From an uncultured Paracoccaceae bacterium (GTDB lineage: Bacteria; Pseudomonadota; Alphaproteobacteria; Rhodobacterales; Rhodobacteraceae), in NCBI GenBank assembly GCA_913054485.1, contig CAJXHQ010000002.1, positions 1 to 25,237 on the forward strand: a stretch of DNA of 25,237 nt, given 5' to 3'. Below are positions 22,873 to 23,169 of this stretch, piece after piece. Both the position numbers and the translations under genes were made by a program. Each line of letters starts with the position of its first letter. Positions within the stretch are counted from its first letter, which is position 1. The notes below the pieces were generated by a model. That model made no database searches, had not been told where the DNA came from, and worked only from the letters and a program-made list of their open reading frames with translations.

Positions 22873-22901
22873 TTGACATCTCCAAAATCTGTGGCACGCT
22901 T
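22873..22901 (+). promoter_or_regulatory. Candidate promoter of the small transcription unit upstream of arfB
   Basis: TTGACA (22873-22878) is a perfect -35 box just past the yhhQ stop. Seventeen bases later the sequence is ACGCTT (22896-22901), a weak match to a -10 element, as is common in this group. A start near 22908 would give a roughly 190-nt RNA ending at the terminator at 23098. Confidence 0.45.
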
Positions 22902-22936
22902 GGATCAGGCGTAACAACACGAAAGGAGGTGCTCTA

Positions 22937-23008
22937 GTGTCTATTGGGAACTTGGAGATCGCAGTTGGAACAGGTCGGATGAACAGTGTTGAGGCAGCCC
23001 TCAGTTAA
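22937..23008 (+). CDS. Micro-ORF of 23 codons with an ideal ribosome site
   Basis: A GTG start at 22937 lies seven bases after GGAGG (22925-22929), and the frame runs to TAA at 23006-23008. The peptide is MSIGNLEIAVGTG then RMNSVEAALS, with a mixed, slightly hydrophilic composition and no membrane or signal segment. The ribosome site is better than that of nearly every real gene in this window, which argues for translation. It may be a functional small protein or a leader peptide whose translation alters the RNA fold, since the ribosome site is complementary to the downstream GCACCTCC. I know no family for it. It is too short to judge by codon use, so coding is a tentative call. Confidence 0.45.
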   Translation: MSIGNLEIAVGTGRMNSVEAALS

Positions 23009-23057
23009 GTGAACCCCGATTTGGCGGCCGCCTAACCGGCGCACCTCCATACTCAAG

Positions 23058-23098
23058 ATGGGCTGTCCGTTACGCATTCGGACAGCCCATTTTCTTTT
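23058..23098 (+). terminator. Intrinsic terminator of the small transcription unit
   Basis: ATGGGCTGTCCG (23058-23069) and CGGACAGCCCAT (23079-23090) form a perfect 12-bp stem with a nine-base loop, and TTTCTTTT follows directly (23091-23098). This is a textbook rho-independent terminator on the plus strand and the strongest in the window. It separates the small transcript from arfB. Confidence 0.9.
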
Positions 23099-23169
23099 GG
23101 CGCACCGCCCGCGGGCCGCGCCAAGTTTCTTAAGTAAGAAAATTGCCAAGGATTTTGCAAAATCCTTGG
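23097..23169. repeat. Composite palindromic element of three consecutive inverted repeats
   Basis: Three inverted repeats sit side by side. TTGGCGC (23097-23103) pairs with GCGCCAA (23118-23124) around the inner palindrome GCCCGCGGGC (23107-23116). TTTCTTA-AG-TAAGAAA lies at 23126-23141. A perfect 24-bp palindrome lies at 23146-23169 (arms CCAAGGATTTTG and CAAAATCCTTGG). The last ends 15 bp before the arfB ATG. The pattern suggests a REP-like intergenic repeat of this lineage, or strong mRNA structure in the arfB leader. Copy number cannot be tested here. Confidence 0.6.

Follow-up and report, generated by a model that had tools for sequence, protein, structure and literature searches.

A candidate ribosome-gated small RNA of Rhodobacterales, related to CC2171, with a short frame kept in length

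Introduction

The DNA analysed here, a stretch of 25,237 nucleotides from an uncultured Paracoccaceae bacterium (hereafter, the window), carries a short segment between a gene for a Vut_1 transporter (PF02592; 22230-22865) and one for an RF-1-domain protein of the ArfB type (PF00472; 23185-23604). A sequence-only reading had judged this segment too ordered to be spacer and had suggested three things that it might be: a small-protein mRNA whose translation is gated by RNA structure, a leader regulating arfB, or a trans-acting sRNA. What, then, is encoded between these two genes? We addressed this question by comparing the locus with its relatives, by folding and by searches for known families.

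Results

An ordered segment with the parts of a small RNA gene

Inspection of the sequence found every element that had been reported. Together with those added by the comparisons described below, they are as follows; the promoter is presumed and the transcript ends of the RNA gene are placed, both from sequence.

22873-22878, + strand: -35 box TTGACA, presumed promoter of the RNA
About 22896-22901, + strand: weak -10 region
22907-23098, + strand: RNA gene, match of covariance model R1 (121 bits; the window is one of its training sequences)
22921-22936, + strand: extended Shine-Dalgarno (SD) sequence GAAAGGAGGTG (22921-22931), then CTCTA
22925-22932, + strand: 5' strand of helix P1 (GGAGGTGC)
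22933-22956, + strand: hairpin P2 over the start codon, as in Rhodobacterales-type RNAs; weak in the window's own sequence
22937-23008, + strand: micro-ORF MSIGNLEIAVGTGRMNSVEAALS, GTG start, 23 codons and TAA (mostly 18 codons in relatives)
22964-22968, + strand: 5' strand of helix P3, GTTGG (pairing in the 60-sequence comparison)
22991-23002, + strand: small hairpin GAGGCAGCCCTC, starting at the stop codon in many relatives
23036-23040, + strand: 3' strand of helix P3, CCGGC (pairing in the 60-sequence comparison)
23041-23048, + strand: 3' strand of helix P1, the internal anti-SD GCACCTCC, which mimics the 3' end of 16S rRNA
23055-23098, + strand: intrinsic terminator, made of a GC-rich hairpin (23055-23093) and a T-run ending at 23098

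The two strands of P1 are exact complements separated by 108 nt, and folding alone places them in one helix. The predicted fold of the window locus has an energy of -70.7 kcal/mol (z -3.06), which was equalled by one of 200 shuffles; helices P2 and P3 are absent from this minimum-energy fold as drawn. Importantly, of 196 genomes searched in the order, 135 contain exact AAAGGAGGTGNTCNAGTGTC and none its reversed control. The view that the segment is too ordered for spacer was thus borne out, and a chance hairpin is ruled out by the conservation, by the pairing comparison, by the fold z-score and by the occlusion of the SD relative to shuffles. We regard conservation as the best evidence that the observation is not due to chance.

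A sigma-70 scan of the window returned no promoter, the -10 region being weak. By eye, a TTGACA-like box and a TGTGgCA..CT block are seen upstream in many relatives and TATAxT-like boxes in other clades, so that promoter-like boxes precede the RNA in the types inspected. The terminator at 23055-23098 was not listed by a terminator scan, which allows loops of 3-8 nt; the predicted loop here is 9 nt. The same listing has a terminator-like site on the minus strand at a perfect 24-nt palindrome, CCAAGGATTTTGCAAAATCCTTGG, at 23146-23169, between the terminator and the likely arfB start; this palindrome could be an operator. Overall, 22907-23098 looks like a stand-alone small RNA gene.

A divergent relative of CC2171, widespread in Alphaproteobacteria

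At Rfam gathering scores, no RNA was found in the window. By E-value, 22913-23089 matched RF01867 (CC2171, an sRNA of Caulobacter) with 29.5 bits (E 2e-4). Since the gathering cut-off is 75 bits, the window RNA is a divergent relative and not a member by Rfam's rule; the earlier reading, which had not recognised a named family in it, therefore needs correcting. Matches to RF01867 were present in 37 of 61 genomes searched, that of Caulobacter vibrioides included, and exceeded the cut-off in one. Both RNAs have a 5' element CGAAAGGAGGUG-UC-AGUGUCU followed by a short frame, a start region pairing with bases ahead of the terminator, an intrinsic terminator at the 3' end, a stand-alone gene, a similar size and mostly one match per genome. 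The RF01867 5' segment CGAAAGGAGGUGAUCCAGUGUCU is present in the window alignment with two substitutions (AUCC to CUCU). They differ in the closing helix, which lies on codons 3-5 in CC2171 (CATTGTC/GACAATG) and on the SD in the window (GGAGGTG/CACCTCC): the helix CAUUGUC/GACAAUG is not in the window, which has GGAGGUGC/GCACCUCC instead. The window's branch also has extra hairpins, P2 to P4. Such RNAs reportedly stem from a 2008 paper on Caulobacter sRNAs. The literature passages that mention the CC2171 RNA assign it no function, and a literature search for the element gave no paper among the matches listed.

Pattern scans, the RF01867 scan and model R1 all found the RNA conserved in related genomes, as the sequence-only reading had required. 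A scan of 385 genomes of the class, allowing one mismatch, found AAAGGAGGTGATCCADTG in 80 of them, at 81 places, none with a mismatch inside GGAGGTG; exact, it occurs in 40 of 398 genomes of the phylum, all 40 within the window's own class. Among the matches listed are Ruegeria, Roseobacter, Bosea, Bradyrhizobium, Methylobacterium, Ancylobacter, Brevundimonas, Azospirillum and Falsiroseomonas, genera that span several orders. R1 was built from 60 Rhodobacterales-type sequences, mostly 18-codon RNAs, and matched 103 of 120 family genomes with at least 47.8 bits, once each, a count to which the window and part of the 120 genomes contributed as training sequences. Two weaker matches also fall on the RNA: one of 38.9 bits (G945) proved, when its locus (L344) was read, to contain the core and a frame of 18 codons, and one of 34.3 bits (G009) coincides with an RF01867 match. 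At E 0.001, R1 had no match in 10 of the 120, and one of these 10 (G018) has an RF01867 match. Conversely, the RF01867 scan missed the RNA of a genome of the same genus (G001), which is present with the window's C-for-A change (see below). The one-mismatch, RF01867 and R1 scans are the freer tests; a looser pattern, AACANNNGAAAGGAGGTG with two mismatches, was uninformative, as it matched 149 of 149 genomes and its reversed control matched many too. We conclude that the RNA belongs to a family that is common among Alphaproteobacteria and, as far as found, known only as CC2171, and that it forms the Rhodobacterales branch of that family.

Among 118 named contigs with the core, four carry gammaproteobacterial labels (L141, L164, L173 and L190), so restriction to Alphaproteobacteria may not be strict; these may reflect transfer, misbinning or wider spread. 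TGSR.APFY is common to the frames of L141 (SAR92) and L173 (Cellvibrionales), and L164 and L190 resemble the alphaproteobacterial MSSE type. One genome (G048) has two RF01867 matches (L003 and L311) whose peptides differ.

A ribosome site complementary to the 16S tail

The family core AAAGGAGGTGATCC is complementary to the last 14 nt of 16S rRNA. In 41 genomes this 14-mer occurs at 25 places. Of the 24 that were inspected, 20 coincide with RF01867 matches, three are the last 14 bases of 16S genes read on the other strand (L318-L320) and one lies in another sequence (L317). The family form GAAAGGAGGTGATCCA likewise complements the 16S 3' tail. The C at 22932 of the window, where pairing with 16S would call for A, breaks the helix with the tail but matches the internal anti-SD; in a sub-clade recovered by R1, GGTGCC stands in place of GGTGATCC. 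Complementarity over the full 14 nt is therefore not essential. Among 302 sequences, the non-consensus letters at position 11 (G 35, C 5) and position 14 (T 11, A or G 3) mostly retain G-U pairing with 16S. These 302 remained of 316 loci once duplicates had been removed, along with loci in which no core, frame or terminator could be read. Many loci were fetched by patterns containing the SD core, and the scripts require AGGAGGTG and ATG, GTG or TTG, so the SD core, AGGAGGTG and the start are invariant in this set by construction; the same holds for the SD core and start of the 152 Rhodobacterales-type RNAs within it. A pattern for the 16S 3' end found none in the window's own genome (a draft, 75% complete), so that only relatives were used to check the complement.

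In the 152 Rhodobacterales-type RNAs the predicted duplex between tail and SD has a mean energy of -25.2 kcal/mol and opening the SD region costs 10.2; the corresponding values for the window are -18.3 and 10.3 kcal/mol. The comparisons thus show a near-invariant putative ribosome site that would pair with a free 16S 3' tail.

Pairing of the ribosome site in Rhodobacterales-type RNAs

The group of 152 Rhodobacterales-type RNAs was selected by peptide, requiring E at residue 7 or 8 and fewer than 24 aa; it is defined by sequence and is not a checked taxon. Consequently, codons 6-7 and the length limit are partly set by construction. For 60 of these sequences we propose a structure with P1 on the SD, P2 on the start codon, P3, a stop-codon hairpin and the terminator. 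In this alignment 92.5% of cells were paired, versus 87.9% with the 3' letters shuffled, and 21 pairs changed on both sides, versus 11.7 in shuffles. Sliding by one column cut the pairing to 53.5 and 54.9%. P2 was paired in 94.8% of cells, and all 12 counted pairs of the terminator changed on both sides in relatives.

P1 joins the SD to CACCTCC ahead of the terminator. All seven core pairs are possible in 138 of the 152 sequences, compared with 19% in shuffles. Variation in these pairs is confined to the 3' side and is mostly to G-U. Two-sided change is seen in the eighth pair (GC 13, AU 6, CG 2, GU 2, unpaired 37), where the window supplies one of the two CG cases. Covariation in this helix had been named as a check: the pairing is indeed kept, but the changes are mostly one-sided, which is weaker proof than two-sided change. 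The SD was predicted to be unpaired with a probability of 0.03, versus 0.36 when the region downstream of the start was shuffled (60 of the 152 RNAs, terminator left out). These results, together with the varying neighbours described below, support a structure-gated ribosome site in an independent unit, as far as folding models can tell. The comparison further shows a predicted long-range pairing of the start region with the segment ahead of the terminator; in the Rhodobacterales branch it would be the 16S-like CACCTCC of this segment that hides the SD.

A frame kept in length and hardly in peptide

The RF01867 scan supplied 28 same-family loci, a set chosen with no peptide condition and not including the window. 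In 26 of them the frame has 18 codons, and in the other two it has 31 and 26. An 18-codon frame is likewise present in 147 of the 152 Rhodobacterales-type RNAs, whose starts are GTG in 150 and ATG in 2. We also chose 24 loci hit by R1, the 12 best hits and 12 picked by hand among lower-scoring ones; 23 were read and 16 were new, and 13 of these 16 had exactly 18 codons, with peptides as unlike as MSRKVLEKCVGTAWEVRS, MSIGIQEQLVRITCEVRI and MSNWDLELEVRLTSGAKI. Across all 302 sequences the frame ranges from 12 to 59 codons, with 153 at 18, and it extends to 23 codons in the window and in G001. Since 18 codons recur while the peptides are very different, the length of the frame is kept and the peptide hardly.

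Could the peptide of 18-25 amino acids nevertheless be the product, with RNA structure merely tuning its synthesis? The stop codon is of three kinds at one place (TAG 70, TGA 56 and TAA 26 of 152), the start codon was mismatched at only one of the 81 places of the one-mismatch scan, and third bases vary with the amino acid kept at codon 2 (Ser in 143 of 147) and codon 11 (Gly in 137 of 147), all as a micro-protein gene would have it. However, diversity at codon positions 1, 2 and 3 was 0.305, 0.306 and 0.289 (147 ORFs), with no excess at the third position, several conserved codons fall within RNA helices, and peptides are unrelated between types as well as very different within the family at an equal 18 codons. 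A Pfam search with the 23-aa frame found no family. We therefore consider a micro-protein gene unlikely. The suggestion of a small-protein mRNA survives in part: the frame and its stop are kept, but there is little sign of selection on the amino acids. The alignments show, in any case, a putative short frame whose length and stop are conserved.

A second SD-like stretch, TTGGAGAGAGGTG, lies inside the frame of many Rhodobacterales-type relatives (columns 46-59 of alignment A1) and could pause ribosomes.

Other types of the family pair different segments

The MSHC type, named by its first residues, includes RNAs of Bosea, Methylobacterium, Brevundimonas and others. Here the codons CATTGTC pair with GACAATG ahead of the terminator (96.1% of cells versus 93.7% shuffled; 45 sequences). 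Early codons could form an unbroken run of six or more Watson-Crick pairs with the pre-terminator region in 45 of 58 MSHC RNAs and, with different sequences, in 28 of 73 other RNAs; swapped or shuffled controls gave 5-7%. Outside MSHC, the gain of the own over the shuffled start/pre-terminator helix is small, as in MSSE (-17.8 versus -16.3 kcal/mol), and is reversed in the Bradyrhizobium type (-13.7 versus -17.4 kcal/mol), for which this helix was rejected. In Bradyrhizobium-type RNAs the SD is hidden instead by a local hairpin with TCACCTC within the frame. The SD is more open than in shuffles in MSHC (0.38 versus 0.26; 58 RNAs) and in MSSE (0.39 versus 0.33), so SD occlusion is not the common mechanism of the family and a family-wide rule of a hidden SD was rejected; among the types compared, the hidden SD is limited to Rhodobacterales-type and Bradyrhizobium-type RNAs. 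We also counted the RNAs that have, downstream of the start, a stretch of at least 7 nt identical to the 16S end. They make up 73 of the 152 Rhodobacterales-type RNAs, all 19 of the Bradyrhizobium type, 15 of 58 MSHC, 6 of 25 MSSE, 2 of 3 of the Devosia type, 7 of 40 others and none of 5 long RNAs, counts that ignore kinship, versus 3-9% of shuffles overall (9% for Bradyrhizobium, 7% for MSHC).

Four loci (L066, L134, L162 and L174, three of them named Azospirillum) have a frame of 56-59 aa after an identical ribosome site. These frames resemble a signal peptide with a short tail; a Pfam search with the 57-aa Azospirillum relative (L162) found no family.

The differences between types bear on the proposal that the RNA acts in trans, its CACCTCC or GGAGG pairing with other mRNAs and its ORF being incidental or a second function. 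That the gene stands alone and that CC2171 is catalogued as an sRNA would fit such a role, and Caulobacter offers a parallel: the excerpts of PMC12559287 describe an anti-SD-type segment in the SisA-D sRNAs, four siblings thought to act in trans through a 10-mer, and mention no micro-ORF in them. Yet the pre-terminator strand differs in sequence between types, CACCTCC is paired in the model and not free, and the kept 18-codon frame would go unexplained. We rate action in trans as improbable, to much the same degree as a micro-protein gene. A ribosome decoy, in which an over-strong SD holds 30S subunits and so titrates initiation, seems less probable still: complementarity to the 16S tail and a duplex of about -25 kcal/mol suit it, but it would need neither the kept frame and stop nor a hidden SD in the Rhodobacterales types, and it would require very high RNA abundance.

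Neighbouring genes differ between families

The neighbours were examined in 52 same-family loci, which include the window and one genome twice, with flanks of about 1.5 kb and some shorter. An upstream Vut_1/YhhQ-type gene (PF02592) was present in 46 and a downstream ArfB-type gene (PF00472) in 40. Neither was found in the fetched flanks of eight loci of other families. Moreover, we picked 14 loci of other types by hand and took mechanical frames of at least 90 aa: in 11 of these loci the first such frame downstream lies on the opposite strand. Although the arfB start, if it is ATG 23185, lies about 90 nt past the terminator on the same strand, an arfB leader or transcription attenuator is highly improbable, since a conserved gene link is missing (arfB is absent from the fetched flank in 12 of the 52 same-family loci and in all eight others) and the consensus folds have no competing helix over the terminator; this earlier proposal was rejected on synteny. 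On the evidence of its changing surroundings, the RNA behaves as an independent gene.

Discussion

We propose, with a probability of roughly 0.5, that the locus encodes a stand-alone, structured, messenger-like small RNA gated by the ribosome, in which the 16S tail and an internal 16S mimic would compete for the SD. Free-tailed 30S subunits would displace the internal mimic and open P1. Such invasion is energetically allowed, since opening costs about 10 kcal/mol and the tail duplex is worth -25.2 kcal/mol (-18.3 in the window). A 30S subunit would then load on the RNA and translate its 18-23 codons; translation would keep the RNA open and free the strand before the terminator, and termination would reset it. 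The state of the RNA, through its stability or its pairing with other RNAs, might report the supply of initiation-competent 30S subunits or, alternatively, of 30S subunits whose tail is uncovered. The peptide would be a by-product.

In logic, the nearest analogue that has been worked out is rpsU of Bacteroidota. According to the excerpts of PMC9976891, the extended SD of rpsU in Flavobacterium and other Bacteroidota is read best by ribosomes lacking bS21. Like the RNA described here, rpsU is typically one gene per genome and has an exceptional SD that pairs extensively with the 16S tail. The threshold given there for SD-16S pairing (below -13 kcal/mol) is passed by the window (-18.3) and by the mean of the 152 RNAs, with energies computed here by ViennaRNA duplexfold, which is not the measure used in PMC9976891. 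The two differ in that the rpsU mRNA both encodes and regulates bS21, whereas the window RNA does not encode bS21; its 23-aa frame lacks a Pfam match and its SD is hidden. According to PMC13009471, the extended SD helix observed in S. aureus would be obstructed in E. coli by bS21, and PMC10582724 describes Era as binding the same 16S segment. These facts on rpsU, bS21 and Era make a sensor of ribosome state plausible. Pos19 of Rhodobacter sphaeroides, as presented in excerpts of PMC5036791, is likewise a small RNA, about 200 nt long, and carries a short frame that is translated; it differs in its 150-nt frame, in its RpoE promoter and in not being found outside R. sphaeroides.

For the CC2171 family as a whole we offer a new reading, drawn from alignments and folds: its core complements the 16S tail and its frame is kept for length and hardly for peptide, while the mechanism built on these features is a hypothesis. 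Going further, we suggest tentatively, and with more doubt than for the gated RNA itself, that this alphaproteobacterial RNA senses the ribosome: the SD would be the probe for a free 16S tail, clade-specific internal copies of 16S would compete with that tail, and a frame of fixed length and free sequence would be the switch.

With these results CC2171, until now a Caulobacter-type sRNA, becomes a gene that most of the sampled Rhodobacterales genomes and many other Alphaproteobacteria carry. If the sensing proposal is true, the RNA would be a riboswitch-like device with the 30S subunit as its ligand, and that ligand may be a particular state of the 30S, for example one without bS21 or one just released by Era. 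With this RNA, the idea that the state of the ribosome can be sensed by a bacterial RNA becomes directly testable.
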